From: Hymenopellis radicata
Lineage: Eukaryota; Basidiomycota; Agaricomycetes; Agaricales; Physalacriaceae
NCBI GenBank assembly: GCA_015501595.1
Contig: JADNRX010000194.1
Span: 1-64,000, forward strand
DNA: 64,000 nt
Direction: 5' to 3'
Shown: piece after piece, positions 8,768 through 45,849 of the stretch
Layout of the letters: each line of letters begins with the position of its first letter
Position numbering within the stretch: the stretch's first letter is position 1
Notes under the pieces: model-generated
Told to the model about the DNA's origin: nothing
What the model saw: only the letters and a program-made list of their open reading frames with translations
The model's database searches: none
Position numbers and translations under genes: made by a program

Positions 8768-9479
8768 CAACTTCGCTGTCAGTTCGGATGGGGAGCCAAA
8801 CAAGGACCACGGTGCGGCGTTCGAGACCGAGGCAGGCTGTCGTTTCTGCCGCGCTCACTGTCCTCGCATTAAATGCGCCACTCTGGGGCACGTCACCGAC
8901 AAGAAAAGGCTCTAAGCAACGACGTAAAGCGAACGTCAAGGCCGGTTGGAAATTCCAAGTCGGCAGTTCGGTCCGAGGCCGCCGTCAACAATCGGTCCGG
9001 ACGCCGAAGCAAGGGGAAGTATTTACACTTGCTATGTTCGCAAGCTGTCGCGATCGCTTTGTGGGCCCAGCCTGGGCCGAGCAGGACACACGGTTAGGCG
9101 GGAAAGCATCCATTTGATTGACGTTCTGATAATAATAGGACAGCGCTAAATGCACGATAACTCCCCGAGTGGCCCGCTTCATCCTCAGATGAAGACGTCG
9201 AAGCACGAGTCCATAGGAACTTTGCAATCAAAACTTCCACCGTGACCCAGCCTTTGCAGGTTGTCCAGTTCGACCACGACCATAGTTTCGGAAACTGTAC
9301 GATGCCTTTTACCGGCCCTTTGGTCTTCCAGCACTCGAGGATGCAACACTCTAGGCTCTGTTCATAATACTTCGCTGTACTGTTAACTGCCCCTGTGACT
9401 CTCGGGACCTACGAACATTGCCTTCTCTCAAGAGATACATGACCTGCTATCCGCTGCTTTGTTTACTTGCACTAGCCTT

Positions 9480-10690
9480 GGCGGCGTTCTCGTCTTCCAG
9501 TTTGCTGTTCCCCCGTATGCATAGGAGTGTCGACGTCTCCGTCTGTTGTACCCGCGTACTACCTGTCCGGCGTTCAAGTGATTATTCTTGGATCGCCCCG
9601 TTGCTTATGCCAAGTCGTACCAGTATGAAAGCTCTCAGTGAGCTCCTACGTTCTCTAAACCTGTGGTGAAGTCCACCATCCCCTCTTACTTCCCGAGGAC
9701 ACTTGTCCTATCGGAACAGCGCCTCATGGCTTCATTCCCTCACTCCTTTTTTTTTGTTCACTTGGATTGACACTCCAATGGGAGTCGGATCAGCTAGTGA
9801 GTGTGATTTATTCGAATGTAGTGTGTTACACGGGCAACCTTAAAGGTTCTACTTCTCGATTTCGAGGCCACTTGTCCTATCGGCACGACGCCTCATATCT
9901 TTCGGCGGTGTCGTTTCTTTTGGTACATGCGGTGAAGAGTCAAACAAGTCGGATGGGCTTTAGGCCTTTGATTTCTTTGAACATACTTAGTCTCTTGCAT
10001 GGGAACATCGAAGAGGCCGAACTGACTCTTCGATTTCGAGGACACCTGTCCTATCGGAACAGCGCCTCATTATAGATCGTCCCACGCGAGCTTTTTAGTT
10101 GAAACTTGACTTGGATTGTCACTCTAGAATAAAAGCAGGTTAACTATTTCTTTGACGTGATTGTGATTTTCTTTTGAATGTAGTTCTTGTGGCACGAGGA
10201 GCGTCAACCGTTATTCGAGTCGGCCTTGACTCAGATTTACCTTTTGGATTTTGAGGCCACTTGTCCTATCGGCAGGACGCCTCATGATTCCGAATGATGA
10301 CATCATTTTTGGTTTATGCAGACATGACTGGATCGAAGGCTCGAAGAGTCAAGCAAGCCGGATGCCAGCCTGCTTTAGTCCTCCAATTTCGAACATAGTC
10401 TCTTGCATGGGAACGTCGAAGTCGAGGCCACTTGTACTATCGGAACAGTGCCTTCATTAATGTGCGGCGATACGATACGATTTTTTCTGCATACACTCGG
10501 AGTGCTGTCTTGGTGGCGGCAAACTTGAAGTGGCAGATTGGCTTCCGCGGTGTGAGCGTTGTTGTCTCAGTCCGTAGTACTGGCTTGATTGAAGACTTGT
10601 GGGGTTTTATTCTGCTGAAGGACACAGGCGGTTGGCTGATTCTGAGATTGCACTTCGGGCCATGACGGTATCCGCCCTCAATGCAGCGAA
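9480..10690 (+). repeat. Outer hairpin-repeat block, left arm
   Basis: Contains five copies of the ~31-base hairpin repeat at about 9695, 9864, 10038, 10253 and 10424. They alternate between type 1 (CGGAACAG then YGCCTC) and type 2 (CGGCACGAC or CGGCAGGAC then GCCTC). Between them recur fixed phrases: GAAAGC then AGCTCACTGAGAGCT-type palindrome at 9630, TTTTAGTTG..CTTGGATTGTCACTC, GACATGACTGGATCGAAG, and a GTCGAAGAGGCC..CTCTTCGAT stem. The same order recurs in the inner block (13.39-14.13 kb) in direct orientation. No coding capacity is convincing here. Confidence 0.85.
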
Positions 10691-10984
10691 CCTTCACCCG
10701 CAGCACGCATCGAGGCTTTATTCAGCGTGCGCTTGCGATTGCTGGGAGAGAATGGGTGTTGGGTGATACTGAGGTGTGTCCAGAGGTTGGGCGAAAGCGA
10801 CGGAGCATTCCGCCAAGCCTTGTTCTCTTGCACCGGTTAACCAAATATCACTGTACGAGGAAGGCTAGGTATATACTTGTACAGGTTCATTTCAAGGGTC
10901 AAAATGTCTGTTCTAGTTACAGGCATAGTAGCTCTGGCCGTCCCACTGGACAGGCGTTCTCGACGACAACCAAGTTCCCCGCTT

Positions 10985-11697
10985 TCAGAAGAGTCTCGAA
11001 ATAAACGTCTTCTTACGTGCAGGTAAGGATGGTACGTACACCGGACCTCCCCACAGAACTGCGTGAATATATTGTGGGTGCAGTTGCATCGTAGGAAGCC
11101 CCGGAGGTGGGTAGTACGGAATGAAAAACTGTGGCGCATATGCCGGGTATGATTCAGCCGTGTGTGGAACGCCGAAGTGGTTGTCTGTCGAGTTCTGTAG
11201 ATGTTGTCAGCGCGTTACGGACGTGGCTCATATGGACTTACACCGACAAAGTGCCGTTGGTTTATAGAATAGGGACCTGGATCTTGGGACGCGAAACCAG
11301 TGGCGTTGTACATCATGCCAGTACTAGGAGGAATCACTGGATGCTGAACTGGCGTTTGAGCATAATCAGGTTGTATCTGTAGTGCACTAGAGGGAAAATA
11401 TGGAGGCTGGAAGCTAGAATGGCCCGGCGGAACACATGCTTGCACTGATGGCGGATAAAGTGGCGCCGCATATCCTCCTGGGAAGTAACCGTTCTCATAG
11501 ACGCCCACAGGATATCCTCCGCTTCCCAAATCGCCTATGGGCCCCATTTGGGCGCTTCCAACGTCCACCACAGAACTTGGACGCGCCGCCGCAAATGGTT
11601 CTAGATAACCTGGTTGCGACTGCGCTGCGTCCCATGTCCATCGCTGCATGTGCTGCCATGCTTCGGCGTCCTGATGAGGATATTCGTATTCCATCAT
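10985..11697 (-). pseudogene. Gene A, left copy: Tyr/Pro/Gly-rich protein with early stop
   Basis: Two exons. ATG 11697 gives MMEYEYPHQDAEAWQHMQRW, then WDAAQSQPGYLEP and a long Gly/Tyr/Pro-rich stretch. The second exon contains the LHPQ/VLWGGPVY-type region. In the right-arm copy the end reads RLFPRRGRLSSRTPVQWDGQ; here the codons after RLF read TGA, removing about 30 residues, while the sequence after the stop still matches the right arm. So this copy is probably inactive or truncated. Function unknown. Confidence 0.6.
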
Positions 11698-11843
11698 GTA
11701 GTAGAAAGAGAGAACAAAAGTTTTTGTGGCGACAAGATCTACAGATCTCGCGATCAACGCGAGGATCAAAATGTCCTTTGATCCCCGACCTGCGCTTCAA
11801 CCATCACCTCCACTGCCTCTAATCTCATCGTTAATACAGTATC

Positions 11844-12251
11844 ATGGCTGTCCTCCTGGCCGCGTCACTCACCTACTACGACGACAAAAAAGCCGTGCTC
11901 AAACACTGGAGCGACATCAATGCCCGGAATACCACACCACCATCAGCAATGATCTGACCGCCCTCTGCTTGCCTGGTGTTAAAAAGAAACATAAATGGAT
12001 AGACGCGGATGGTGTCGTGTCTCTGTGGTGGCTAGGGCGCAATTCGGACGGTGATGTCCGTTCGCGTCTCTTTTCAGTCATGTTATTCAAAGAGCTTCTA
12101 GGTCGGTCCAAAATTGCATCTCGGCTTGGAGCGACTCAAGAAGTACGTGAATCCCAAGGAGGGCTCGGAAGAGTTGCAGATGCTGTTGCTTTGTAAGATG
12201 TGCGTGCATTCTGTTATCTCGGCGTTCATTCACGTTCAACGGAGGAAATAG
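11844..12251 (+). pseudogene. Gene B, left copy: frameshifted
   Basis: Begins ATGGCTGTC at 11844 (MAVLLAASLTYYDDKKAVLK), as in the right arm. At about 11,933 the left copy reads TGCCCGG where the right copy has TGCCCCGG. The missing C shifts the frame and produces an early stop. Downstream sequence continues in the expected frame (TISNDLTALCLPGVKKKHKW), then an intron (donor GTCCGTTCG, weaker than the right-arm GTGCGTTCG) and the second exon GLERLKKYVNPKEGSEELQM ending HVQRRK. The lesion could be a sequencing error, but the right copy lacks it. Confidence 0.55.
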
Positions 12252-12518
12252 AAAGTCGATATCGATCTTGGAGCAGTTCGTTAATAATGCTATCTCCTCT
12301 CTCAACGCGTCGATATTCACACTTTCACAGAAGTAACAAGTCCGCTCCCAGTTTCGTGCCACCAACACGCGAAAAGGTACGTGTTCTTCGCGTGCAAACC
12401 TCGTGTAGAGGACCTCAAGAAGCACTAGCATCCGTCAACGTCTCCACGGTCCCACTCTTCATCTAAATCATCACCATCGCTCAAAGCCCATCTGAATTCT
12501 ATTATACTGAATAGCAAC

Positions 12519-12886
12519 ATGTCAGGGGACTCCGACAAACGAGAAGAGGGCGAAATCACCGCCACTCCTCCACCACCTCCAAAGCGACGACGCGCCCTCG
12601 CCATGGAGGTCGGAAATGACTTTGCCCTGCCCACAACTACTAAACAGGAGTCGGGTTCGTGGTTTCTTCGTCGCTCGACACCGTGTATTCATAAACGTCG
12701 GGTCTAGCTCTGCTAGCGCGCATTCACGAGTTGGAAGCCGAACTCGCTGCTGAGCGCCGCAAACGTAGAGACTGCGAACGTGCGCTCGAAGACATCCGCC
12801 GGGAATGCCGACATCCGTTTGTCGTTCCCGCAATATTCGATGCTGTCCTGGCTGTCTCGAAGCTCACGAACCAGCTTCAAAAGTGA
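12519..12886 (+). CDS. Gene D, left copy: small acidic/basic coiled-coil protein
   Basis: Two exons. The first gives MSGDSDKREEGEITATPPPP, a basic patch PKRRRALAMEVGNDFALP, and ends in KQESG. An intron from GTTCGTGG to CGGGTCTAG follows. The second exon reads IHELEAELAAERRKRRDCER..LEDIRRECRHPFVVPAIFDA and ends KLTNQLQK. Residues ~55-85 form a clear coiled coil; PKRRR is a possible nuclear signal. There is no basic-region zipper pattern or homeodomain. The right-arm copy (24,307-24,674) is also open. A decayed third relative (D') lies in each arm next to the F-box gene. Confidence 0.65.
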
Positions 12887-13389
12887 CTGTCAATTCCGCT
12901 GTCGGCTTCACCGACATGACCACGAAATGCGGCCTTGGGCCGTAAACATGCAAAGGACCAGGAAACAGGTCGGGGATTGACATCACCCTCTTTGTCCACT
13001 GACTCGGGGGACTTTCCATGCACACCTACTATAGTGTAGTGTATTCCGATTCAATTCAGAGGCCACTTATTCTACCGGACAAGCGGTCCAATTGAATGTA
13101 TGCTCGCTGAACACTTTTTGTTTCTTGTGGATTACTTGAAACCTCGAATCATGCTGAAGTTGTATTTACAGTCAAAGGAGAAGACGGCAGATTGGCTTAG
13201 CTGCATGGTCCGTCAATCAGCTGGACCTTGAGAGTTCTTTTTGCTCCCTAGACTCGTTTGCGGCAGACAAGTGACCACGCCAGACGCATGCAGTGGCTCG
13301 CGAGTCACCGCTGACATGAGCAAGATCAGGCGCTAGCACCATGGACTTTGAAAGATTACATTTCTCATCTCTCATAGTTGTCTCCGCGG

Positions 13390-14125
13390 CGCTCTCGTCT
13401 TCCGCATAGGAGCGTCGACGTCTCCGTCTGTGCAGTGCGCACCCGTTTACTACCTGTCCAGTGTTGTGATTCTTCTTGGACGCGTCCCTTATGCCAATTC
13501 GTACCGGTATGAAAGCTCTCAGTGAGCTCCCACGTTCTCGAAACCTGCGCTGAAGTCCACCATCCCCGTTTGCTTTCCGAGGACGCTTGTCCTAGCGGAA
13601 TAGCGCCTCATCATTGAGATGTCAAGATTGCTGCTCTTTTTAGTTGACTTGAATTGTCACTCCAGGATACAAGGCAGTCTTTGATGTGAGTGTGATTTTC
13701 TTTGAATGCAGTTTGTCGAAACATCAGAGGTTATACCAGCGGCCTTACATTCTTGATTTCGAGGCCACTTGTCCTATCGGCACGACGCCTCATGACTGTA
13801 TCCCGGTGAACTTGTTTTTGGTTTGTGCGGACATGACTGAAGACTCAATCAAGCCGGATGGACTTGAGTCCTCGAATGTAGTAGTCTCTCGCACAGGAAT
13901 GTCGAGGAGGCCAGACTTACTCTTCAATTTCGAGGCCACTTGTCCCATCGGAACAGTGCCTTTCCTCAATCGTGGCGGCCGGATATCACGCGCTATTTTT
14001 GTCGGAGTGAAGACAAGTGGTGGATTGGCATGACCATTTTTGTCTTGGTCTGGCTTGATTGGAGACTTTTCGCCACTGGGCGGTCCGCTATCAGTGCTGG
14101 GTATCGCCCCTCAATGCAGCGAATC
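13390..14125 (+). repeat. Inner hairpin-repeat block, left arm
   Basis: A shorter direct repeat of the 9.48-10.69 kb block. It starts with the same GCGGCG..CTCTCGTCTTCC phrase, has the AGCTCTCAGTGAGCT palindrome at 13,517, hairpins at about 13579 (type 1), 13761 (type 2) and 13932 (type 1), and ends with the same TCAATGCAGCGAA phrase. Two more divergent hairpins sit outside it at about 13059 and 14199. The two blocks bracket genes A, B and D within the arm. Confidence 0.85.
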
Positions 14126-14419
14126 CCCCGTGTGTCTTTTTTGAGGCCTGACTCTGCATGGGACTGATTCTGGCAGATAGTGCGACAGAAGAGATCCAAG
14201 GCGACTTGTCCTGCCGGATACAGCGCCTCAATGGGACCAGCCGCACAGGTACCGCCTTTTTTGTCCTCTGACTTTGGACTTTGAAGTATGTGTGAATAGT
14301 AAGACGTCTTCAATTGGCCTTCTTTTTGTTTCTTGCAGACCCCGCACTAGTACGCTGAAGTCGAAAGAAGGCGGATTCAAGTCGGCTTAGCCGCGTGTTT
14401 CAACTCAGGATTCTGACCA

Positions 14420-14830
14420 GTGTTCGTCGCGTGCAAACCGCATTTAAAAGACCCCAAGAAGCATTGCACCCTGACTCAGAATCATCAATACTGAAGTCCA
14501 TCTAGACTCTACTCCATGACACAACGTGACAGACCACTCTGATAAACGAGAAGACGGCAAAATCCCCCGCTTTCTTCGTCGGTCTACACACTGTATTCAT
14601 AAATGTCCAATCTAACCCTTCAAGCGTGCATTATCGAGTTGTTGAAGCCGAGCTCGCTGCTGAGCGTTGCAAACGCGCAGACTGCGAGCGCGCGCTTGAA
14701 ATGCCGACATCCGTTCGTCGTCCCCGCAATCTGACTGTCTCGAAGCTCACGAACAAGCGTCAAAAGTGACAGTTAATGTTGTCGTCTTCACCGACATGAC
14801 GACAAAATGCGGCCTCGGGCGTAGACATGC
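14420..14830 (+). pseudogene. Gene D', decayed copy of gene D and its flanks (left)
   Basis: Aligns by eye with 12,380-12,950: upstream CGCGTGCAAACC..AAGA(C)CCCAAGAAGCA, then GATAAACGAGAAGACGGCAAAATC (gene D start region without its ATG context), then the second-exon phrases GAGTTGTTGAAGCCGAGCTCGCTGCTGAGCG and AAGCTCACGAACAAGCGTCAAAAGTGA, then the same CTTCACCGACATGACGAC tail. The middle of both exons is deleted and the start is lost. It shows that a ~2 kb segment was tandemly duplicated before the whole arm was inverted and copied. Confidence 0.7.
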
Positions 14831-14965
14831 ATGCAACGAGCCAGACGCATTGAAGGATGGACCTTCTGTCCAAGTCAATATTCGCGAGGCCGGTCAAGGT
14901 CTTTGGAAGGATTCTGTTACGAAAAAGAGGTAAACAAACGTTGTACACATGGACATACAAGATTA

Positions 14966-16087
14966 TCATACCCGATTGGAATTGAACGTGGGTAGATTGA
15001 AAAATGGAGGACGTTCACGCAGGGCCTCTATCTTCTTGCCCCACTTTGAGGCTGCAGGTAGAACGGAGGGTATAGATACTTCCTCAAGCGACAATGATGT
15101 TACTTGGGAGAGTATCTGGAGCATGGCATCACAGAAGATTGGCTGCATAGCGCCTTCGAAGGAGATGATGCGCAATTGATCATTGGCGCTCAAGTCTAAT
15201 AATGTCGGAGCGACATCTAGAAACCCCGTTAGTATGACTATGGAGAAACAGAGACGATTGCGAGGCATACCTGGATTATTCCATCCGGGATAGAACGGTC
15301 CCGATGTCGGATGTAGAACGAGCTCGCAGAGATGAGAGCCAGCGCCTTGCAATAACCTGCGTACCGATTTCGTAGCTCTAAAGCCCGTCCCACCAAGCTT
15401 CAAGTACTCCAGCGGTATATCCACCCCGTCCGGAGTACCCGATATCCATTCCATGACCGACTCGATTACACTCACGCGCGGCCCGACAAGCGTGAACCGG
15501 CGGAGCGTCATGGGCACCCCTCGACCATGAAGCGCTGCGTCGGAGGGGAGCGCGTTCATGTTGGTGATCATTGTGAGGTAGATGAAGGTCAGGTCCTCCA
15601 AGACGGGGAACAGGGATATGACATCGGCCAGCTGGGCTAAATCCGAAAGCTTGGAGTGGTGCAGCTCGAGCGCGGTTACGCCTTGATAAGGACGTAGGGA
15701 CTCGCGCGCAATGGGCTTGCGCGTAGACCAGTCTATATTATTCAGACAGAGCTTGCACAGGTGTGGGAGCTTGGCGGTGACAGGCGCGAGCTGATCTAGG
15801 ATCTCGCAGTCTATGTGGCCTGTGTCCGGCTGCTGTTTCCTTTGGATTACCAGTGCCCGTACAAATTCCGGTAGGGTGGCCTTTGGTGAGGCGAAGAGAT
15901 CTACGAATCTCAAGGCGGTTTCGGGGCGGATAGTCACAGTGCCAAAGAGCATGCGCCGGCTGATGATGTGCCACGGGATGTTGATGAGGGAAACGGAAGC
16001 GAGGGTGCCGACGTCGAGGTTGAGAGAGTCCGGCTTGGTGGCATCTAGAATAGCTTCTATAATCTCGGGAGGGAGTTCGGAGGCCAT
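14966..16087 (-). CDS. F-box protein with LRR-like body, left copy
   Basis: ATG 16087 opens an F-box-like N-terminus: MASELPPEIIEAILDATKPD..LASVSLINIPWHIISRRMLF. Such a segment would bind Skp1 in an SCF ubiquitin ligase. The rest has irregular leucine-rich blocks (LCLNNIDW, ALELHHSKLSDLAQLADVIS, LTSLSLEEVSIPSV) for substrate binding. One 54-base in-frame intron lies near 15,218-15,271 (donor GTATGCC, acceptor TTTCTAG). The mature protein is about 355 residues. The frame is unbroken. F-box proteins are greatly expanded in Agaricomycetes; the target is unknown. It sits at the inner end of the arm, reading outward. Confidence 0.85.
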   Translation of the reverse strand: MASELPPEIIEAILDATKPDSLNLDVGTLASVSLINIPWHIISRRMLFGTVTIRPETALRFVDLFASPKATLPEFVRALVIQRKQQPDTGHIDCEILDQLAPVTAKLPHLCKLCLNNIDWSTRKPIARESLRPYQGVTALELHHSKLSDLAQLADVISLFPVLEDLTFIYLTMITNMNALPSDAALHGRGVPMTLRRFTLVGPRVSVIESVMEWISGTPDGVDIPLEYLKLGGTGFRATKSVRRLLQGAGSHLCELVLHPTSGPFYPGWNNPGMPRNRLCFSIVILTGFLDVAPTLLDLSANDQLRIISFEGAMQPIFCDAMLQILSQVTSLSLEEVSIPSVLPAASKWGKKIEALRERPPFFNLPTFNSNRV

Positions 16088-16090
16088 TAT

Positions 16091-17105
16091 GGTTATGGTT
16101 GTCGATGAGAGTAATTTATAAGGAGTGCACAGCTGAGCGCGGTCAGGGCGCGGTTAATAACTCCGCGCCGATCATACCGGAAATAGGAACTGTCGCTGTG
16201 AAAGACGCAACCAGGACGCAGCTACTATACTCCTCAGACAATACAAACTGTACACGCCGCAGCGAAGGTTAAGCCCATGCTCAGTGAACTTTCCATTAGG
16301 AAAGGTTGATTGCGAATGATAGGGCTATCAAATAATCAATGAAACTCAACCCTCCCAATGCTGTTGACAGATGTTGCACTGGACTGAATGCCATGGGTGC
16401 TTGGTCTCTTCTTGCTAAGTACTGTGGATTATGTTGGGTACTCGGTCCTGCGTCAGTATCGCGTCCCAGCGCAGCGTCGAACTCGTTGTATGGGCTACAC
16501 GTCGGCCTCGTCCTACTGACCGTCGGCGCTGTGTCAATCGCGTTCCAAGTCCAGTAGATATCGTCGTCCTTATTCAGGTCCTCGACCCGTCGTTGTCGTC
16601 CTCATGTGCCGATTGAAACCAGCTCGCGGCAAGGCGCGCGCTGCAATTTGGACTTGGATGGATTTTCATGCTGGAGACGATGGACGTCCGGAAAGCATTG
16701 GCGAGGAGTTACCATCCGGACTTCTATTCCGCATATTATTGTAAGTGCCTGCTCCCCCCCCCCCCACATCGACCAGGTCGTTCTTCGATCTGAAATGTGT
16801 TCCGAAGAATGTCGACAAACAACGCACATACATGATTCTCGCTGAGTCCCCTGAGACCAGCTTGTCGGAAGCAATAGGCGGGTTCGTCAAGGACGCGCAC
16901 GACGGCGCGGCCAGTACACATGACGTTTCCCGGCGGCGTGTCCTAAATGTCGGGCATCGAGAGGTGTGAGATAGACAACATAACAGTCTTCATACGAGCC
17001 ATCTGATCGGCGGCCTTACAAACTCTGTTGTTACTTTCTAAATACACCTGTGTGTTACACGCAGTCAACGTTGCTGCGAGATTCCTGTGTGATGGTAAGT
17101 GTAAT
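16091..17105. other. Spacer, no gene recognised
   Basis: Runs from the left F-box start to the DUF6534 stop. It contains an A/T-rich TTATAAATTA-like motif about 30 bases upstream of the F-box ATG (16,108-16,118) and a run of 13 C residues near 16,755. Short frames at 16.3-16.9 kb on both strands have no recognisable content. Confidence 0.4.
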
Positions 17106-18592
17106 TCAAGAAAGAAAGTCACGACCTACACCCACGGTCTTCATCTCGACACGGTCATCAGTGTTTCGGTCACTGAAGGCTTCCCTTGTAATCGAAACAA
17201 CGGGGCGCCCGATGGTAGGGTGCCTCCTCCCATCGGAGGCTACCTCGTCACGCCAGACGATACTCGGAAATGACACCATGTCTGCAGAGGACGTATATGT
17301 CGCGCGTCCGCCCACAATTCGGAGACGGGAGTTCAGAACCACGAAGATCATGTTGGCGTAAAGTTTTGGGATCAAGAGGGCGGTGCCTGCTTGGAACATA
17401 GTCCCTGGCAATGCGAAGAACAGAACGAGAGCGGTAATATTTACAAGAGCTACAAAAGCGTCGTATGTGATCAGCGTGCGAGAATCTGTTATGGGATACT
17501 ACAACGCACCGGTTACGCTTCCAGTCTCGATAGTCAGACGAATTAGCTTTGAGATCAGGGCATGTGTGTGGCGGAACCCAGTATCACTTTGTAAGAGCTG
17601 GAATCACATCAGAAATGTTCAGTACGGACCGGAGAGGACAGACCTACATAGTACGTCATGCAGGTGGCAATGAGGGTGTCACTCAAGGCAGCACCACCAC
17701 ACCAGACCTTTGCGAACAAGTTAGCTGAGATACGGAGATTTCTTGGCAAGTGCGTACTCCGACTGCAGTAGTGAGCCTTCGGTTGTTAACTCGAGTAAGA
17801 TTGCCGGCTGAAATGATTGAGCACAGGGATGTGTTGATTCGAAAGATGATCTCCACCTTCAAAGGTAAAAGCCCCAGCTACGAAGCCAGCGATAGAGCTT
17901 GTCAATGAAATCTGAGCAAGTTAGATGATGTCCATGCAGGCACAGTAGATATCACTTACGGCCAAGATTACCACAGGAAATGCCCGTCTTTTTGTAAACG
18001 TGTAGATACGATATGCATAGAATGTTTGACCGACAAATGCAACTGAAAGACCTATTAGCATTGAAGAATCTTCTGGATAGGAGTGAGCACATACCTAGTC
18101 CGCTTAATGTAGGGATAGAGAACCACTCGAAGTGGATGTCTGTAATTGCCTGTACATCGCCGAAACCGGATCCAAACATCGCAAAAGCGTCATGCATAAT
18201 AAGAACAGTCTGCACGAATTCCATAATATAGATGCCGTAGGCAAGACATTTGTTGAACAGCCGATCCTCTGGGAATGCCTCGTAATACAGGTCTGCGAAT
18301 TTTGTATCAGTGGCGCTGCGGAGAACTAGCCGGATGTGTGGCAAGGGAAAACCGCACAGAGTTGAACAGTGAGAGTACCAAAGAGACAGGCATTCATGAG
18401 AAAACCAATTATCTAAGTCACAGAAGGTTCGAAGAGACGTTCCAAAGCAGTTACAAGAATGCTTGCCATAGGTCCGGACCTATCAGCACACATTGAACAA
18501 CCCCTTGAGAACAACAGCAAAACAACTCACAGCGTCGCGATCTGCAGACCTGGAGGCAGAGATTCGACTGGGATCATCGTCTTCAAGGACAT
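17106..18592 (-). CDS. DUF6534 seven-helix-type integral membrane protein
   Basis: Assembled from about eight exons. ATG 18592 gives MSLKTMIPVESLPPGLQ. Next come IIGFLMNACLFGTLTVQLYL, YYEAFPEDRLFNKCLAYGIY, and the family hallmarks TVLIMHDAFAMFGSGFGDV and HFEWFSIPTLSGL. Then follow SVAFVGQTFYAYRIYTFTKR, ISLTSSIAGFVAGAF, WCGGAALSDTLIATCMTYY and ALVNITALVLFFALPGTMFQ, ending in LYANMIFVVLNSRLRIVGGR and a polar tail. This order of hydrophobic helices matches the DUF6534 family, very abundant in Agaricomycetes and of unknown function. No break was seen. It is the only intact gene in the spacer of the inverted duplication. Confidence 0.85.
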
Positions 18593-19308
18593 GGGTAGAG
18601 GACAACAGGCAGAACAGTTCTTAAGATATAGCACACATCCTGCTGATGCATCGGGGCATCGGTCACCCCGATCAACAGTAAAGCGTGGTTGAGAGGGGGA
18701 ATCATGAAGCTGATGAACAATGAGGTAGACATCCCGTGCTTGCCTGAGTACGTCCAATAGACGGACCGCCAAACGCCCAAGCACCCCACAGCTACTGACG
18801 ATCCTTCCACACTCCCCGGACACGTCCAACACGGCAACACGTTCAGCTAACCTATGCCCTTTGAATCAGTATTTGCCGGTAGACGCGGGAGGATGCAACC
18901 GCCGGACCTTAAAATGCTGAGATCAAGATCATACAAGAAGAGGATGTGTTCTGTGTTAATATCAATCGTACGGCAGTGCTGTTCATGGCGGTCGAAAGGA
19001 ACCGACCAGCGACCGATCAATGTCCCTTTTTCCGTCACGTGAAAACCATGTGACGAGTTCGCGGCTGTTCGAAATTCGACAGAGTGTCTGCGAGAAACAC
19101 TGTTTCCTTCCTCTTGTAGATTCTGATCACCTTCATCTAGTTCGTGTTTAGATCTTTGCAAGTGGATCAGTGTTGACGGTAGCACAGGACCTGAGAAGAT
19201 GCGACTCGGAGACTCGGACTCGGACTCGGACAGACCTCAGTCAACATAGTTCAGTACATAGTATTGATCTCGATATCATACGAGAACCAAGGATCCTCTA
19301 CGATGATA
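18593..19308. other. Intergenic, nothing recognised
   Basis: Upstream of the DUF6534 gene. It holds an E-box-like CACGTG near 19,036 and a short CGGACT microsatellite at about 19,205-19,230. The 112-codon minus frame at 18,847-19,185 has no domain. Confidence 0.35.
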
Positions 19309-20787
19309 CTATCACCCGCATTGATGTGGTTGCTGGACCGTCTGATACACGAGTAGCGCCGGTCGTGAGATGTGGATGACATCCTAACGAGAGATGAATC
19401 AGATTTGCTTAGACATGACACGAAGAAGAGGTTACCTTTTCCAAATCGATCTTGGCGTCTGCGCCCATACGTGTCTCCCGGATGAGATTGACGATGTATT
19501 TCTCGCCTTCGTCGCGGGATAGGTTGAGACGGTCGGAGAGTTCACTGGAGGATGTTGGTTAAGAGGAGAACTGGTTATAAAGGACGCACCCAATGTCAAT
19601 CTTTTGGTGGATACGGCAGTACGCCTCACTGATGAGGTACCGCGCGTTATCCAAAAACTCCTCACGGAAGTTTTGAATGAAAAAGTCATCACCAACGACA
19701 ACCTCAGCCTTGCAAGCTCTTTCTGCGCACTCTCAAAGTCAAACTCGACATAGAGCTCCTTCAAGAAATTCGTGACAGGATCAGAGTACTGATACTCCTC
19801 CATCTGAATAATCTTGACGACTTCTCGAACAGCATGCCGTACGCGCGAAGACGAGCCCGAGACGGATGCTTTCCTTGACAGAATAGCAGCTGCGGTAAGG
19901 TAGCGCAATATCCACGGGCATGCCGTTTGGATGGTGTTGAGGTAAATCGGGGAGAGGAATGTCTCGAGGAGGAGAGTGCGGCCCTGGGGGTGGTTGAAGT
20001 AGACGAACAGAGACCAGTGGACGAGCCATGTTCGCGAGTGCAGCTGCTTTAGCGCGGGTTCGGGGGCGGACGTGGATCTGGAAGGGGAGAGGAGGGGGAC
20101 GGGCGATCGCGAGTCGATGAGTCGCGCAGACTGTTGAGCTCCTCTAATGCGATGTCCTAGCGCCCGACTAGGATATTTGAGGCGAGCTTTCCCCAGTGCG
20201 CTGGAATGTTGAGATCGTTGTCCGTAGACAAGACACGAAAGTGGTACAGATAATCTGCTGCACCACTATAAGTTCCGTATGAGTATTGGAATTTTCCGAA
20301 TGTGCAAAGCCCAGTGATGTGCTCTAGAGTAACCTGATGAAACATCAATATAAAAACACGAAAATAAAAGCGACACGCACGTTGTAATTGTCTTTGAGAT
20401 ACTGCAGATTTTGGTTCTTGTCCTGGCACAGGGCTTGCGCCACATCCGGATTTTCGATGGCATCTAAAACCGCCTGCGCGAGGCTGCGCCTCATTCTGCA
20501 ACCGCTGATGCAAATTCTACGCATTCCCTTTAGCGTTTCCGTTTCAAAAATCCAACAAACATCGCACCTGCCGGAACCTGCTCATTCGGATATACCTTTT
20601 CGAAAAAAGACACCGCATAGTCGCATAGTCGAACATATTCGTGCCTTTTGCCAGTTCATACTGGGCAACTTGGATCTCGTGGGCGGAGTACAGGTCGGAT
20701 TCAGAGAGATGCGCAAGGAGGGGGAAGGCCAGATGGCGGTCGGTCCAGGTGCCCGATTATCTTGTTGGATAGGTCGTATTCTGCCAT
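19309..20787 (-). pseudogene. eIF3 subunit e (INT6) pseudogene, truncated
   Basis: eIF3e belongs to the translation-initiation complex eIF3. Recognisable parts from ATG 20787 ([16 protein letters not shown]) onward are [53 protein letters not shown], the WLVHWSLFVYFNHPQGRTLL block, RYLTAAAILSRK, DPVTNFLKELYVEFDFESAQ, and [20 protein letters not shown]. Lesions are a GACC tandem duplication near 20,740, an 8-base duplication at 20,614-20,629, TAG at 20,157 where Trp is expected after LVGR, and a one-base loss near 19,712. The 3' end stops after VYQTV, with the conserved remainder missing. Introns are retained, so it arose by DNA duplication. A working copy is presumably elsewhere. Confidence 0.88.
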
Positions 20788-20958
20788 GCTCGTTGTCGTC
20801 GGCGATGATGAGCAGAGTCAATTTTCGAACACAGCCACCTGGTGGAGATGGACGAATGTGGAAGGGAGATAAGATAAGTCAGTGAGTCTCCCACGGGCAC
20901 GTGCCTGAATCATGCTAAAGAATCACCTTCAACTTGTTCTTCACCAGCGACCACCACA

Positions 20959-22085
20959 ATGGCCGCCTCCGAACTCCCTCCCGAAATTATAGAAGCTATA
21001 CTAGATGCCACCAAGCCAGACTCTCTCAACCTCGACGTCGGCACCCTCGCTTCCGTTTCCCTCATCAACATCCCGTGGCACATCATCAGCCGGCGCATGC
21101 TCTTTGGCACTGTGGCTATCCTCCCGAAACCGCCTTGGGATTCGTAGATCTCTTCGCCTCACCAAAGATCACCCTACCGGAATTTGTACGGACACTGGTA
21201 ATCCAGAGGAAACAGCATCGGGACATGGGCTACATAGACTGCGAGATCCTAGATCAGCTCGCGCCTGTCACCGCCAAGCTCCCACGCCTGCGCAAGCTCT
21301 GTCTGAATACTATAGACTGGACTACGCGCAAGCCCATTGCGCGCGAGTCTCTATGTCCTTATCAAGGCGTAACCGCGCTCGAGCTACACCACTCCAAGCT
21401 CTCGGATTTAGCCCAGCTGGTCGATGTCATATCCCTGTTCCCCCTCTTGGAGGATTTACACTTTATACATCTGAACATGATCACAGACATGAACGCACCC
21501 TCCGAGGTGGCGCTCCACGGTCGAGGGGTGCCCATGACGCTGCGACGGTTTACCCTTGTCGGGCACCGCGTGAGTGTAACCGAGTCTGTCATGGCATGGA
21601 TATCAGGTACACCGGAGGGGCTGGATATTCTGCTAGAATACTTGGAGCTTCATGGGCGGGGATTTATAGCTACGAAGTCGCTAAGCAGGTTATTGCGGGG
21701 TGCTGGCTCTCATCTCCGCGAGCTCCTTTTAGATCCTAGATCGACGCCGTTCAGTCCTGCATGGAACAAATCAGGTATACCTTCCCATCTTCTTTGTTTC
21801 CTCATCGTCACCATGCTAATGGGGTGCCCAGATGTTGCTCCGGCAGTACTAGACTTGAGCGCCAACGACCAATTGCGCATCATCTCCTTCGAAGGCGCCA
21901 TGCAACCAATCTTCTGCGACGCCATGCTCCAGATACTCTCCCAAGTAACATCATTGTCGCTTGAGGAAGTATCTTTACCCCTCGTTCTACCTGCGGCCGC
22001 AAAGTCCTCAAAGTGGGGCGAGAAGCTAGAGGCATTGCGCGAACGTCCGTCCTTCGTCAATGTACTGAAGTTCAATACCAACTAA
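20959..22085 (+). pseudogene. F-box protein, right copy, frameshifted
   Basis: ATG 20959 starts MAASELPPEIIEAILDATKP as on the left. Near 21,122 this copy has ATCCTCCCGAAACC where the left has ATCCGCCCCGAAACC. Loss of one C in the C-run shifts the frame and stops the protein after ~62 residues. The remainder is fully open in the other frame (FVDLFASPKITLPEFVRTLV.. to FVNVLKFNTN), with the same intron (donor GTATACC, acceptor GTGCCCAG). If the missing C is a sequencing error, this is a working paralogue. Confidence 0.65.
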
Positions 22086-22289
22086 TCTGGTATGATATTT
22101 TTTATGTTCATGTGTACAACATCTGTTTACCCTCTTTCTGCAACAGGACCCGACAAAAGACCTTGACCGGCCTCGCGAATATTGACTTGGACAGAAGGTC
22201 CATCCTTCAATGCGTCTGGCTCGTTGCATGCATGTCTACGCCCGAGGCCGCATTTTGTCGTCATGTCGGTGAAGACGACAACATTAACT

Positions 22290-22720
22290 GTCACTTTTGA
22301 CGCTTGTTCGTGAGCTTCGAGACAGTCAGATTGCGGGGACGACGAACGGATGTCGGCATTTCAAGCGCGCGCTCGCAGTCTGCGCGTTTGCAACGCTCAG
22401 CAGCGAGCTCGGCTTCAACAACTCGATAATGCACGCTTGAAGGGCTAGATTGGACATTTATGAATACAGTGTGTAGACTGACGAAGAAAGCACGAACCCG
22501 ACGCCCTCTTTGTAGAAGGGCAACGTCATTTCCCACCTTCATGGCCAGAGGACGTCGTCGTCTTGGAGCTCAGGTAGTGGTGGTGGATTGGTGGGGGGAT
22601 TTTGCCCTCTTCTCGTTTATCAGAATGGTCTGTCACGTTGTGTCATGGAGTAGAGTCTAGATGGACTTCAGTATTGATGATTCTGAGTCAGGGTGCAATG
22701 CTTCTTGGGGTCTTTTAAAT
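22290..22720 (-). pseudogene. Gene D', decayed copy of gene D (right)
   Basis: Mirror of 14,420-14,830 with the same internal deletions. It retains the GTCAAAAGTGACAGTTAAT end, the TTGAAGCCGAGCTCGCTGCT phrase, and the TGATAAACGAGAAGAGGGCA start region without the original start codon. The two D' copies are very alike, so they decayed mostly before the arms were duplicated. Confidence 0.65.
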
Positions 22721-23037
22721 GCGGTTTGCACGCGACGAACACTGGTCAGAATCCTGAGTTGAAACACGCGGCTAAGCCGACTTGAATCCGCCTTCTTTCG
22801 ACTTCAGCGTACTAGTGCGGGGTCTGCAAGAAACAAAAAGAAGGCCAATCGAAGACGTCTTACTATTCACACATACTTCAAAGTCCAAAGTCAGAGGACA
22901 AAAAAAGGCGGTACCTGTGCGGCTGGTCCCATTGAGGCGCTGTATCCGGTAGGACAAGTCGCCTTGGATCTCTTCTGTCGCACTATCTGCCAGAATCAGT
23001 CCCATGCAGAGTCAGGCCTCAAAAAAGACACACGGGG

Positions 23038-23812
23038 GATTCGCTGCATTGAGGGGCGATACCCAGCACTGATAGCGGACCGCCCAGTGGCGAAAAGTCT
23101 CCAATCAAGCCAGACCAAGACAAAAATGGTCATGCCAATCCGCCACTGGTCTTCCCCCGAGACAGCACTCCCAGTATATGCACAAAAATAGTGCACAGTG
23201 AATCGGCCCGCACATACACTGTTCCGATAGGACAAGTGGCCTCGAAATCGAAGAGTAAGTCTGGCCTCTTCGACGTTCCTGTGCGAGAGACTACGTTCAG
23301 AGAAACTAAAGCCCATCCGGCTTGATTGACTCTTCAGTCATGTCCGTACAAACCAAAAACAAGAACTGGACCACCCAATATGCATGAGGCGTCGTGCCGA
23401 TAGGACAAGTGGCCTCGAAATCAAGAAGGTAAGGCCGCTGGTATAACCTTTGACGTTTCGACAAACTACATTCAAAGAAAATCACACTCACATCAAAGAA
23501 ATAGCTACGCTGCCTTGTATCCTGGTGTGACAATTTAAGTCAACTAACAAAACATAGGTTGCTATTCATTCCTATCAACGAGGCGCTATTCCGCTAGGAC
23601 AAGCGCCCCCGGAAAGCAAGCGGGGATGGTGGTCTTCAGCACAGGTTTCGCCGAGAACGTAGGGGGGCTTTTATGCTGGTGCGACTTGGCATACTATAAG
23701 CAAGGGACACGATCCAAGAAGAATCACAACACCGGACAGGTAGTAAACGGGTGCGCACTGCACAGACGGAGACGTCGACGCTCCTATGCGGAAGACGAGA
23801 GCGCCGCGGAGA
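23038..23812 (-). repeat. Inner hairpin-repeat block, right arm
   Basis: Inverted counterpart of 13.39-14.13 kb. Hairpins lie at about 23214 (type 1), 23386 (type 2) and 23580 (type 1), with divergent outliers at 22934 and 24107. It shares the GACTTTTCGCCACTGG and TTTGACGTTTCGACAAA-type phrases, in mirror order. Confidence 0.85.
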
Positions 23813-24306
23813 CAACTATGAGAGATGAGAAATGTAATCTTTCAAAGTCCATGCTGCTAGCGCCTGATCTTGCTCATGTCAGCGGTGACTCGCGAGCCTC
23901 TGCATGCGTCTGGCGTGGTCACTTGTCTGCCGCAAACGAGTCTAGGGAGCAAAAAGAACTCTCAAGGTCCAGCTGATTGACGGACCATGCAGCTAAGCCA
24001 ATCTGCCGTCTTCTCCTTTGACTGTAAATACAACTTCAGCATGATTCGAGGTTTCAAGTAATCCACAAGAAACAAAAAGTGTTCAGCGAGCATACATATA
24101 ATTGGATCGCTTGTCCGGTAGGATAAGTGGCCTCTGAATCGAATCGGAATACACTACACTATAGTAGGCGTGCATGGAAAATCCCCCGAGTCAGTGGACA
24201 AAGAGGGTGGTGTCAATCCCCGACCTGTTTCCTGGTCCTTTGCATGTTTACGGCCCAAGGCCGCATTTCGTCGTCATGTCGGCAAAGCCGACAGCGGAAT
24301 TAACGG

Positions 24307-24674
24307 TCACTTTTGAAGCTGGTTCGTGAGCTTCGAGACAGCCAGGACAGCATCGAAGATTGCAGGCACGACAAACGGATGTCGGCATTCCCGGCGGATG
24401 TCTTCGAGCGCACGTTCGCAGTCTCTACGTTTGCGGCGCTCAGCAGCGAGTTCGGCTTCCAGCTCGTTAATGCGCGCTTGAAGGGCTAGATCGGACGTTT
24501 ATATTTGTGGGGGATAGAGAGGCGAGGGAAGCACGAACCCGACTCCTGTTTAGTAGTTGAGGGTAAGGCAAAGTCATTTCCGACCTCCATGGCGAGGGCG
24601 CGTCGTCGCTTTGGAGGTGGTGGAGGAGTGGCGGTGATTTCGCCCTCTTCTCGTTTATCGGAGTCGCCTGACAT
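24307..24674 (-). CDS. Gene D, right copy: small coiled-coil protein
   Basis: ATG 24674, MSGDSDKREEGEITATPPPP, then PKRRRALAMEVGNDFALPST and the same intron position after KQESG. The second exon reads LQARINELEAELAAERRKRR..CERALEDIRRECRHPF and ends KLTNQLQK. Both copies are open and splice identically, and differences are mostly mild (LLARIHELE against LQARINELE). That suggests continued selection or recent duplication. Acidic N-terminus, basic patch, C-terminal coiled coil; no known family recognised. Confidence 0.65.
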
Positions 24675-24938
24675 ATTGTTATTCAATGAAGTAGACTTTG
24701 GATGGGCTTTTAGTGTTGATGATGTTTTAATCGAAGAAGACCGTGGGGACGTTGACGGGTGCTAGTGCTTCTTGAGGTCCTCTACACGCGGTTTGCACGC
24801 GAGGAACACGTACCTTTTCGCGTGTTGTGGGCACGAAACTGGGAGAGAGCCTGTTACTTCTGTGAAAGTGTGAATATTGACGCGTCGAGAGAGGAGAGAG
24901 CATTATTAACGAACTGTTCCAAGATCGATATCGACTTT

Positions 24939-25348
24939 CTATTTCCTCCGTTGAACGTGAATGAACGCCGAGATAAGAAAATGCACGCACATCTTGCAAA
25001 GCAACAGCATCTGGAACTCTTCAGAGCCCTCCTTGGGATTCACGTACTTGTTGAGTCGCTCCAAGCCGAGATGGAATTTTGGACCGACCTAGAAGCGCTT
25101 TGAATAACGTGGCCGAGAAAGAGACGCGAACGCACATCACCGTCCGAATTGCGCCCTAGCCACCACAGAGACACGACACCATCCGCGTCTATCCATTTAT
25201 GTTTCTTTTTAACACCAGGCAAACAGAGGGCGGTCAGATCATTGCTGATGGTGGTGTGGTATTCCGGGGCGTTGATGTCGCTCCAGTGTTTAAGCACGGC
25301 TTTTTTGTCATCGTAATATGTGAGTGACGCGGCCAGGAGGACAGCCAT
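24939..25348 (-). CDS. Gene B, right copy: orphan ~120-residue protein
   Basis: Two exons. ATG 25348 gives MAVLLAASLTYYDDKKAVLK, then EYHTTISNDLTALCLPGVKK, WIDADGVVSLWWLGRNSDGD. A 46-base intron follows (donor GTGCGTTCG, acceptor GCTTCTAG). The second exon reads VGPKFHLGLERLNKYVNPKE..EEFQMLLLCKMCVHFLISAF and ends HVQRRK. The hydrophobic end may be a membrane-associated helix. No family is recognised. An antisense frame of 114 codons overlaps it (24,759-25,103), also open in the left arm; the spliced sense reading is preferred because its donor and acceptor are good. Confidence 0.55.
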
Positions 25349-25498
25349 GATGCTACTGGATTCACGAGGAGATTAGAGGCAGTGGAGGTGATGGTTGAAG
25401 TGCAGGTCGGGGATCAAAAGGCCATTTTGATCCTCGCGTCGATCGCGAGATCTGTAGATCTTGTCGCCACAAAAACTTTTGTTCTCTCTTTCTACTAC

Positions 25499-26286
25499 AT
25501 GATGGAATACGAATATTCTCATCAGGGCCCCGAAGCATGGCGGCACATGCAGCGATGGACATGGGACGCAGCGCAATCGCAACCAGGTTACCTAGAACCA
25601 TTTGCGGCGGCGCGTCCAAGTTCTGTGGTGGACGTTGGAAGCGCCCAAATGGGTCCCATAGGCGATTTGGGAAGCGGAGGATATCCTCTGGGCGTGTACG
25701 AGAACGGTTACTTCCCAGGAGGATCTGCGACGTCACTTCATCCGCCAGTTTTGCAAGCATGTGTTCCGGGCCATTCTAGCTTCAACCAGCCTCCATATTT
25801 TCCGCCTAGTGCACTACAGATACAACCTGATTATGGCGTCTATCAAGCTCCAACACCAGTTCAGTATCCAGTGATCCCTCTTAGTACCGGCATGGGCAAC
25901 GCCAATGGTTTCACGTCCCAAGATCCAGGTCCCTATTCTATAAACCAAGGGCACTTTGTCGGTGTAAGTTCATATGAGCCACATCCGTAACACGCTGACA
26001 ACATCTACAGAACTCGACAGACAACCACTTCGGCGTTTCAGACGCGTTTGGATCATACCCGACACATGCGCCCCAATCTTTCATTCCGTACCCACCTCCA
26101 GAGCTTCCTACGATGCAACTGCACCCACAATATCTTCACGCAGTTCTGTGGGGAGGTCCGGTATACGCACCATCATTGCCTGCACGTAAAAAGACGTTTA
26201 TATCGAGACTCTTCCCAAGGCGGGGAAGGTTGTCGTCGAGAACGCCTGTCCAGTGGGACGGCCAGAGCTACTATGTCTGTAACTAG
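25499..26286 (+). CDS. Gene A, right copy: Tyr/Pro/Gly-rich protein
   Basis: Two exons. ATG 25499 gives MMEYEYSHQGPEAWRHMQRW, then WDAAQSQPGYLEPFAAARPS and a low-complexity Gly/Tyr/Pro/Ser stretch. An intron (donor GTAAGTTC, acceptor CATCTACAG) leads to NSTDNHFGVSDAFGSYPTHA, PYPPPELPTMQLHPQYLHAV, LWGGPVYAPSLPARKKTFIS and a basic end RLFPRRGRLSSR..WDGQSYYVCN. Length is about 245 residues. Mostly disordered with a short folded-looking C-terminus; composition recalls adaptor or RNA-binding disordered proteins, but no domain is recognised. It is the intact member of the A pair. Confidence 0.65.
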
Positions 26287-26487
26287 AACAGACATTAGTG
26301 ACACTTGAAATGAACCTGTACAAGTTATATGCTTTCCTCGTATGATATTTGGTTATTCCCGCGGCGCAAGAGAACAAGGCTTGGCGGAACGCTGCGTTGG
26401 TTTCGCCCAACCTCTGGACACACCCAACACCCATTGTCTCCCAGAAAAAGCAAGCGCACGCTGAATAAACGATGCGTGCTGCGGTGA

Positions 26488-27862
26488 AGGTTCGCTGCAT
26501 TGAGGGGCGACTCAGTACAGCTGCATTATGCCCCGAAGTGCAATCTCGTAGTAATCAGCGAACCGCCTGTGTCCTTCAGCAGAATAAAACCACAAAAGTT
26601 TTCAATCAAGCCAGGACTACGGACCGAGATAAAAACGCTCACACCGCGGAAGCCAATCCGCCACTTTGCCGCCACCAAGACAGCACTCCGAGTGTATGAA
26701 GGAAAAAGCGACGCGGATCTTTGCCATGAAGGCACTGTTCCGATAGTACAAGTGGCCTCGACTTCGACGTTCCCATGCAAGAGACTATGTTCGAAATTGG
26801 AGGACTAAAGCCTGGCATCCGGCTTGCTTGACTCTTCGAGCCTTCGATCCAGTCATGTCTGCATAAACCAAAAACATAGCATCGCTGAAACATGAGGCGC
26901 CGTGCCGATAGGACAAGTGGCTTCGAAATCGAGAAGTAGAACCTTTAACGTTGCCCGTGTAACACACTGCATTCAAATAAATCACACTCACTAGCTGATC
27001 TGCCTCCCATTGGAGTGTCAATCCAAGTGAACGAAAAAAATGCACCCGATTCTATGGTCATGAGGCGCTGTTCCGATGGGACAAGTGTCCTCGGAAAGTA
27101 AACAGGGATGGCGGACCTCAGCACAGGTTTCGAGAACGTGGGAGCTCGCTGAGAGCTTTCATACCGGTACGACTTGGCTTAAGCAAGGGGTGCAATCCAA
27201 GCTTGAAGAATCACAACACCGGAAGCCGATCCGCCACGTAGCTTCCCCAAGACAGCACTCCCAGTGTATGCAAAAAAAGCCGTTCTCTCTCACTGTCGAA
27301 TCGAGGCACTGTTCCGATAGACCAAGTGGCCCAAGAGTCAGTCTGGCCTCTTCCACGTTCCCATGCAAGTGACTATGTTCAAAGAAGCTGAAGGACTAAA
27401 GCCCATCTGTCTTGTTTGGCTCTTCAGTCATGTCCGCATAAACCAAAAGAAACGACATCGCCGAAGATGGGGCGTCGTGCCGATACGACAAGTGGCCTAG
27501 AAATCAAGAAGTAGAACCTTTAACGTTCGCCGTGTAAGACACTACATGCAAATAAAATCACACTCACTAGCTGATCCGCCTCCCATTGGAGTGACAATCC
27601 AAGTGAACGAAAAAAATCCGGTGATCCCGATTCCATCATGAGGCACTGTTCCGATAGGACAAGTGTCCTCGGAAAGTAAACAGGGATGACGGACCTCTGC
27701 ACAGGCTTCGAGAACGTAGGAGCTCGCTGAGAGCTTTCATACCGGTAATAAGCAAGGGACGCGTCCAAGAAGAATCACAACACCGGACAGGTAGTAAGCG
27801 GGTACACAGACTGAGACGCTATGCATACGGTGGAATACCAGACTGGAAGACGAGAGCGGCCG
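26488..27862 (-). repeat. Outer hairpin-repeat block, right arm
   Basis: Inverted counterpart of 9.48-10.69 kb but with six hairpins, at about 26728, 26894, 27062, 27303, 27468 and 27640. Read on the minus strand they form two type 1-2-1 trios in tandem; the left arm has a fused form of the same trios with five. Copy number therefore changes by whole trios. The AGCTC..GAGCT palindrome occurs twice (about 27,143 and 27,726). Confidence 0.85.
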
Positions 27863-28190
27863 CCGAGTAAACAAAGCAGGTAGTCAACGTTAGTAGGTCC
27901 CGACAGTCCACAGTACAGCGAAGTATTATGAACACAGTCTAGAGTGTTGCATCCTCGAGTGCTGGACGACCAAAAGACCGGTAAATGGCAGCGTACAGTT
28001 TCCGAGACGGTCGAACTTGACAACCTGCAAAGGGTGGATGTTTTTTACTGGAAGATGAAAGCGGACTAATCGGGGAGTTATCGTGCATTTAGCGCTGTGC
28101 GATTATTATCAGAACGTCAGTGGATGCTTTTTCGCCTAACCGTGTGTCCTGCCGGTCAGCCACAAAGCGACAGCTTGCGAACATAGCAAG

Positions 28191-28198
28191 TATAAATA
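28191..28198 (+). promoter_or_regulatory. TATA-like box at outer end of right arm
   Basis: TATAAATA inside AGCAAGTATAAATACTTCCC, facing out of the arm. The left arm has the matching outward-facing TGTAAATA near 9,020-9,027, one base weaker, upstream of the coiled-coil gene at 8.3-8.8 kb. Whether either is used is unknown. Confidence 0.4.
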
Positions 28199-28210
28199 CT
28201 TCCCTCGGAC

Positions 28211-40773: not shown

Positions 40774-42800
<2,027 letters not shown>

Positions 42801-45139: not shown

Positions 45140-45595
45140 CAAGTCGTACCGACATGAAAGCTCTCAGTGAGCTTGAAACCTGCGCTCATGTCCACCATCC
45201 CCCTTTCCTTTCCGAGGGCACTTGTCCTATCGGAACAGTGCCTCATTGATAGCATCTAGGATCCACTAAACTTTTTAGTTGAGTTGAATTGTCACTTCAG
45301 AATACAAGGCGAATTAGCTTAGTCTTGTGATGTGGGTGTGAATGTAGTTTATTACGACTCAGACGATTTCGAGGTCACTTGTCCTATCGGCACGACGCCT
45401 TGATTATCAAAGTTCGCAATCGAACAACAGCGTTTTTTTGGCTTATGCGGACATGACTGGATCGAAAGTCAAGCAAGCCGGATGGGCTTTAGTCCTCCCA
45501 TTTCTTTCAACGTGCATAGTAGGAACGTCGAAGAGGCCAGACTTACTCTTCGAGTTCGAGGCCACTTGTCCTATCGGAACAGTGCCCCAATCGCG
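45140..45595 (+). repeat. Solo hairpin-repeat block outside the arms
   Basis: A type 1-2-1 trio of the hairpin repeat at about 45214, 45371 and 45558, with the same linkers as in the arms: the AAGCTCTCAGTGAGCTT palindrome at 45,161, TTTTTAGTTGAGTTGAATTG, GACATGACTGGATCGAA, and AACGTCGAAGAGGCCAGACT. It shows the trio is a mobile or dispersed unit independent of genes A, B and D. No terminal repeats or target duplication could be fixed. Confidence 0.85.
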
Positions 45596-45849
45596 TATAT
45601 CAGGTAAACTTTTTTTTACAGCACCTCACATGTGAGAAAGGCTGCTTCGGCTCTGCCTAACGCAACCGTATAACACTGAGTCTGGTGTGAAAAAGACTTC
45701 ACCTTGAATCAACTGAGCCAACGCAAAGGTGAAGTCGGCATAATCTCGAATGACATGTAAGGATTTCCCTACGCCGTGAAAGATACTCGTGCCCTTTTAT
45801 AAGTCATGGTCAGTTTCATTCGCTCATATAACCATTGACGGGTTGCGGG

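Follow-up and report, generated by a model that had tools for sequence, protein, structure and literature searches.

An old gene-bearing palindrome in Hymenopellis radicata and its clusters of short, candidate Pol III-type RNA units with variable tails

The stretch of DNA analysed here (the window) comprises positions 1 to 64,000 of contig JADNRX010000194.1 from the agaric Hymenopellis radicata (assembly GCA_015501595.1). It contains an imperfect palindrome of 19 kb, in which a left arm (A1, 9014..16093, plus strand) and a right arm (A2, 20953..28204, minus strand) enclose a spacer of 4.9 kb. An earlier interpretation made from the letters of the DNA alone (the sequence-only reading) had proposed such a structure, and self-BLAST of the window bears it out as a near-continuous anti-diagonal, all matches having E=0, with arm ends that lie within a few bases of those proposed. 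Arm against arm, 22594-26936 matches 14568-10241 with 89.7% identity, 20953-22491 matches 16093-14569 with 88.6%, and the outermost kilobase (27303-28204 versus 10068-9014) is 74% identical. Each arm begins at its outer end with a repeat block (the outer block), which is followed inwards by gene A, the doubtful frame B and gene D; next come the inner block, a degenerate duplicate of D termed D' and, nearest the spacer, an F-box/LRR-like gene. The mirror order of the two blocks, A, B/D, D' and the F-box-like gene was recovered as anticipated, and inverted, gene-bearing arms surround a shorter spacer. The absence of a transposase, also claimed beforehand, agrees with zero transposase Pfam matches among the 20 open reading frames scanned, which form part of those in the window.

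The same palindrome is present on a second contig, C818, with arms at 198162-204865 (the counterpart of A1) and 210328-216795 (the counterpart of A2), borders as in the window, and arms that are 84–87% identical to each other in the main matches. The flanks on both sides are common to the window and C818 at 88–95% identity. The spacer has the same orientation on both contigs, and inversion of the spacer, which the sequence-only reading had considered, was not seen (n = 2). Since C818 carries the same palindrome, the structure predates both haplotypes and is not a fold-back of the assembly, a candidate rejected on the ~11% difference between the arms and on the borders common to the second contig; the diverged arms had been taken as a sign of this from the outset. 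When the outer portion of the left arm (9014-14565) was searched against the assembly of 75.5 Mb and 1405 contigs, with match counts that are lower bounds, matches longer than 500 bases were found at the palindrome locus and on C818 only, on which ground a centromere-like inverted repeat, expected once per chromosome, was rejected. The palindrome is confirmed as real and old. The mushroom is probably dikaryotic, and the window contig and C818 would be its two haplotypes. An excerpt of the Oudemansiella raphanipes paper describes H. radicata strain MG139 as dikaryotic with a heterozygosity of 4.23% and gives 54.9 Mb for one monokaryon assembly of that study (PMC9961838), and a further study provides a genome sequence for strain IJFM A160 of this species (PMC8480192, in excerpt), which is probably the strain of the present assembly. 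Near the palindrome, window positions 1-3805 are inverted on C818 (C818:189049-186126) and ~3 kb of C818-only sequence precedes the collinear part, a difference that reads as a haplotype inversion or rearrangement.

The two haplotype contigs provide four arms for comparison. In the F-box part, alleles are 96–99% identical as against 87–88% for arms, and in the part from A to D all six pairwise arm comparisons give 92–94%. The four-arm alignment contains 325 informative sites, among which 255 are of allele type, 42 of arm type (uniting arms of the same contig) and 28 crossed, and these sites fall into 36 runs, compared with a mean of 118 and a minimum of 103 in 2000 shuffles. Arm-type runs of 6, 10 and 8 sites lie at ~12.55-12.65, 13.09-13.25 and 14.07-14.20 kb and the crossed ones at 9.49-9.60 and 10.80-11.16 kb, and the last 156 informative sites, at the F-box end, are all of allele type. 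The arms are thus mosaic, with the arm-type runs and the low number of runs that arm-to-arm conversion tracts would produce. This is the pattern predicted by patchy arm-to-arm gene conversion that would act in the middle of the arms and be absent at the F-box end, and the mosaic patches support the exchange by gene conversion that the sequence-only reading had held possible.

The innermost gene of the left arm (14969..16087, minus strand) corresponds to the annotated H. radicata protein P0001, which has one intron, by eye its sole difference from the window frame. Its right copy (20959..22085, plus strand; P0002) has a frame broken near the 5' end relative to the C818 copy, and the P0002 model omits that part. 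The F-box/LRR label is a weak one: no Pfam match was obtained at E<=0.1, the predicted protein model is of low confidence (predicted local distance difference test score, pLDDT, 63.7, from 4 sequences), and its best PDB matches, namely F-box-LRR and other LRR proteins, have TM-scores <0.5 to the query. Two further relatives of this protein are 89% identical over 75% of the length and 50% identical over 73%. Gene A lies at 10988..11697 (minus strand, two exons; annotated as P0005 with a different 3' end) and at 25499..26286 (plus strand; P0006), and a stop codon interrupts the first exon of its left-arm copy on C818. Gene D occupies 12519..12886 (plus strand; two exons, 104 aa, with the intron placed by eye) and 24310..24674 (minus strand; 3' end approximate). 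Across the four arms, the ratio of nonsynonymous to synonymous substitution rates (dN/dS) is 0.25–0.55 for the F-box gene, 0.30–0.59 for gene A and 0.08–0.29 for gene D, and D and the F-box gene look constrained. Both A and D are also annotated among H. radicata proteins, and a search of limited sensitivity returned no relatives outside this species among ~5.8 billion proteins. The duplicate D' lies at 14420..14830 (plus strand) in the left arm and at 22229..22640 (minus strand) in the right arm, the latter copy being supported by self-BLAST. The standing of B as a gene is doubtful; open frames are found on both strands, one frame of the left arm is, as judged by eye, shifted relative to the other three arms, and a four-arm codon test was too noisy to settle the matter.

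The repeat blocks that the sequence-only reading had pointed out are indeed present, but they were underdescribed as plain repeats and form the most unusual content of the palindrome. They are arrays of a unit of ~55 nt, which consists of a constant head of ~34 nt, a variable tail of 13–33 nt and a run of T residues (T-run). In the 63 units read in six stretches, the length before the T-run is 47–67 nt. On the plus strand of the left arm lie an outer block of five units (9695..10486; units at 9695, 9864, 10038, 10253 and 10424), a single divergent unit (13059..13119) and an inner block (13579..14262; units at 13579, 13761, 13932 and 14198), with a spacing of 169–215 bp within the blocks. The inner block (22900..24134; units at 24134, 23610, 23416, 23243 and 22965) and outer block (26703..27670; units at 27670, 27499, 27333, 27092, 26924 and 26759) of the right arm lie on the minus strand. 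Block copies extend beyond the palindrome to 45139-45586 of the window and to other contigs; the third block of the window (45214..45617, plus strand; units at 45214, 45371 and 45558) has a counterpart on C1067. A protein-coding reading of the blocks was set aside in view of their short frames and differing unit lengths.

The head contains a motif, TG(T/G)C(C/T)TANCGG, which is near the A box of tRNA genes and whose position is constant in all but one of 31 divergent units. When scored with the A-box and B-box consensus sequences, these 31 units reach a mean A-box-like score of 9.87 out of 11 (11 in three units, 10 in 21 and 9 in seven), compared with 8.23 for shuffled sequences and 8.61 for the highest of 200 shuffles, and an A box as used by RNA polymerase III (Pol III) was in this sense found. 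Runs of at least four T within the following 200 nt begin at offsets, counted from the start of the head, of 40–49 in five cases, 50–59 in 50 and 60–69 in 12 (63 units), with at most 10 per later bin, and the T-run accordingly lies at a narrow distance in a collection from which units without a T-run within 110 nt had been dropped beforehand. The heads are predicted to fold better than shuffled sequences, with a mean z of -2.39 over 52 heads and 42 of the 52 below -1. Identity with a known Rfam family or with tRNA was rejected for want of a match: Rfam gave no match in the window at the gathering threshold, four weak matches below that threshold in 9000-16250 at E<=10 cover no unit, and ARAGORN (bacterial setting) found no tRNA in the window and five loci.

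The tail was examined in pairs of units selected on one flank, and its identity was compared with that of an equal-length window on the opposite side (81 units with full flanks). Pairs with an upstream identity of >=0.8 (n=80) have a tail identity of 0.60 as against 0.79 downstream, the tail being lower in 58 pairs, higher in 14 and tied in eight. Selection on a downstream identity of >=0.8 (n=51) gives 0.60 as against 0.79 in the upstream window (38 lower, nine higher, four tied). At >=0.9, the corresponding values are 0.67 and 0.84 for upstream selection (25 lower, seven higher, six tied) and 0.67 and 0.89 for downstream selection (18, four and four). The head of flank-matched pairs has an identity of 0.93, above that of the flanks, while the tail falls below them, and random pairs of tails are 0.43 identical. 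Tail variation in flank-matched pairs therefore exceeds that of the adjoining DNA. In a set of 25 pairs chosen by the high identity of both flanks, and so biased toward conserved flanks, identity falls abruptly between positions +33 (0.88) and +34 (0.36). Tail differences in this set comprise 30 transitions and 73 transversions, as against 110 and 64 in the flanks. Since the tails lack the transition bias of their flanks, they look replaced more than point-mutated. The base composition of the tails is nearly even. A second hairpin in the tail was rejected, with a mean energy of -1.95 as against -2.01 for shuffles (59 tails).

Units of this kind are dispersed in the genome. With at most two mismatches, the head has 71 genome matches as opposed to none for a reversed control, and these lie on ten contigs (C508, C512, C763, C818, C1067, C1218, C667, C1, C73 and C464). 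C512 and C818 form an allele pair among the units, and identical tails suggest that C763/C1218 and C73/C464 are allele pairs as well. A pattern of head, gap and TTTT gives at least 195 raw matches, in which overlapping T-run ends are scored more than once, and five in the reversed control; the matches listed add C490 and single, looser ones on other contigs, which may be chance matches or tRNA genes. A second subfamily with a different head and the same plan occupies five distinct places on C48 and C826. On C48 (7401-8200), three units of this subfamily carry different tails before their T-runs, and two of the three point towards each other and match over an arm of 30 nt. The head pattern has no match in IMG/VR viral contigs, a collection that may omit records of this genome, and no description of such units was found in the titles and abstract beginnings of the literature searched, mostly non-subscription papers.

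The explanation favoured here, with a confidence somewhat better than even, combines an old inverted duplication and partial conversion with a dispersed family of Pol III-type small-RNA units whose tail is diversifying. The palindrome would be an old inverted segmental duplication that is present on both haplotype contigs, with arms that evolve apart at the F-box end and are in part homogenised through gene conversion in mid-arm. Each arm would carry two clusters of very short transcription units that belong to a dispersed family, and the T-run would terminate Pol III to give RNAs of ~50–70 nt. From the anatomy of the units we infer Pol III transcription and an RNA product, and the best interpretation is that they form an undescribed family of small-RNA genes of Pol III type. 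More tentatively, we infer that the tail owes its diversity to a role in specificity, presumably by pairing, and is not merely unconstrained. Several results weigh against this explanation. The B box is not enriched in the 100 nt upstream or downstream of the units, no upstream position is conserved among the 31 divergent units, and A-box-like matches in the 100 nt downstream also exceed those of shuffles (0 of 200 as high), perhaps due to further units there. Covariation, attempted as a proof of the head hairpin, failed, being no better than in shuffles and with zero pairs in RNAalifold. The T-run was itself a requirement of unit collection, and the unit pairs are not independent. Furthermore, 17 positional allele pairs matched by hand and without a threshold (17 of the 24 window units, seven without a clear partner being left out) show a weak contrast, with identities of 0.83 upstream, 0.94 in the head, 0.73 in the tail and 0.80 downstream, and three of the 17 tails are identical. 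Finally, a genome-wide search with five tails, allowing at most three mismatches, gave matches to units only for four of them, so that no self-target was seen for these four.

The last two of these results also speak for a rather unlikely alternative, according to which the units are Pol III genes whose functionless tail is scrambled by transcription-associated mutation or break repair and whose head is kept for the promoter. The tails are neither rich in hairpins nor skewed in composition, and the targeting of small RNA genes by AID in yeast, as reported in the title of PMC4359381, makes mutation hot spots plausible. However, the DNA immediately upstream and downstream is not equally scrambled in flank-matched pairs, the tail changes lack a transition bias, and the upkeep of head, length range and T-run in tens of copies is left unexplained unless the RNA is used. 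That the units are what is left of a mobile or satellite-like repeat, such as a miniature inverted-repeat transposable element (MITE), a short interspersed nuclear element (SINE) or a SIRC-like sequence, and that the palindrome arose by repeat-mediated inverted duplication, would fit the clusters on several contigs with paralogous flanks and the transposase fragment near units on C508; it is nevertheless quite improbable, as the order of head, tail and T-run is kept together with the A-box-like motif, and decay alone is insufficient for a head above and a tail below flank conservation. The fragment in question, the C-terminal part of a hAT transposase, lies between units at ~38.6-38.9 kb of C508 (L040:1599-1877). 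Least probable is an ordinary inverted segmental duplication in which the blocks are non-functional, low-copy repeats. In its favour, both inverted duplication and gene conversion are commonplace, the search for relatives of A and D returned none beyond H. radicata, and D' has degenerated, but the anatomy of the blocks is non-random and the dN/dS ranges of D and the F-box gene look constrained.

A more far-reaching form of the Pol III-type explanation concerns guide RNAs. In CRISPR type V crRNAs and OMEGA/Fanzor guide RNAs, an invariant 5' hairpin precedes a 3' segment that varies and has the length of a guide, and the units resemble them in their constant 5' predicted hairpin and a variable 3' segment of that length. 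Programmable RNAs are built in this way, from a constant head and a variable tail. In contrast to the CRISPR and OMEGA systems, the units stand separately ~170–215 bp apart, each has its own T-run, and they belong to fungal nuclear DNA in which no PF07282 domain was found. That search for the TnpB-type domain gave no match in the genome, with 6 of 14 controls positive and none of them a known eukaryotic one, and a divergent Fanzor may escape it. The fifth of the tails searched, that of unit 27670 (window 27617-27638), has matches with two mismatches on C461 and C1168 and with three mismatches at two places on C866. The C461 match lies within an open frame and is antisense to the tail; by a rough estimate, a single match of this kind is no more than slightly unexpected when five tails are queried. 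A comparison of 56 distinct tails with 17 stretches at <=3 mismatches returned 12 lines, of which nine merely recover the units from overlapping loci and three are 3-mismatch matches of 16–19-mers. It is an unlikely and speculative proposal that the units constitute a eukaryotic nuclear guide-RNA repertoire, in which Pol III RNAs would join a protein-binding constant head to an exchangeable specificity tail of ~20 nt and in which the units would stay clustered so that recombination of the palindromic arms and paralogous blocks could generate new tails and shuffle them. The use of such a repertoire, for example against foreign nucleic acid or in mycelial self/non-self recognition, is equally speculative as part of the same joint proposal.

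Plasmodium RUF6 is a multicopy Pol III noncoding RNA family that resembles the units in the same respects as human snaR-A. Like the units, snaR-A comprises short elements in many copies that have an A-box-like motif and a T-run and cluster in paralogous blocks (PMC12647172, in excerpt). In contrast to both families, the H. radicata units are very short, have a variable 3' segment, showed no B box and no Rfam match, and are only putatively transcribed. The SIRCs of Arabidopsis, according to an excerpt of PMC10342631, are tied to MITEs and heterochromatin marks, whereas the H. radicata units have an A-box-like motif and a T-run. Fungal microRNA-like RNAs are likewise small RNAs tied to hairpins (PMC9757828 and PMC6145500, both in excerpt), and Pol III transcription of those of Neurospora was reported by a study cited in the same excerpt of PMC9757828; in the H. 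radicata units, however, it is the constant part that is predicted to form the hairpin, and the variable part is not rich in hairpins. The units would be of greater consequence than the palindrome, since a multicopy family of small-RNA type with one defined segment that evolves faster than the sequence beside it calls for a process that diversifies this segment.

The palindromes of the mammalian X and Y and the willow W chromosomes, as far as described in excerpts of PMC8981503 and PMC7023750, share with the present one inverted gene-bearing arms, a spacer, presence on both haplotypes and conversion-like tracts. The H. radicata palindrome differs in its arm identity of ~89% (88.6–89.7% in the main arm matches) instead of >99%, its patchy conversion, its 7 kb arms and its occurrence in a fungus. 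The palindrome literature found is mostly concerned with sex chromosomes, and a fungus with both haplotype contigs allows the histories of arms and alleles to be separated. The earlier statement that such palindromes are unusual in fungi holds in the narrower form that no comparable fungal palindrome was found in the literature searched by title.

Parts of the spacer (16094..20952) have copies of 73–93% identity on C716, C754, C1323, C482, C628, C598 and C475 (for 16100-20950), and one of its frames has a weak DUF6534 match below the Pfam cut-off. The right flank (37349-51629) encodes sortilin/VPS10, GMC oxidoreductase and Iml2/TPR39 domains.

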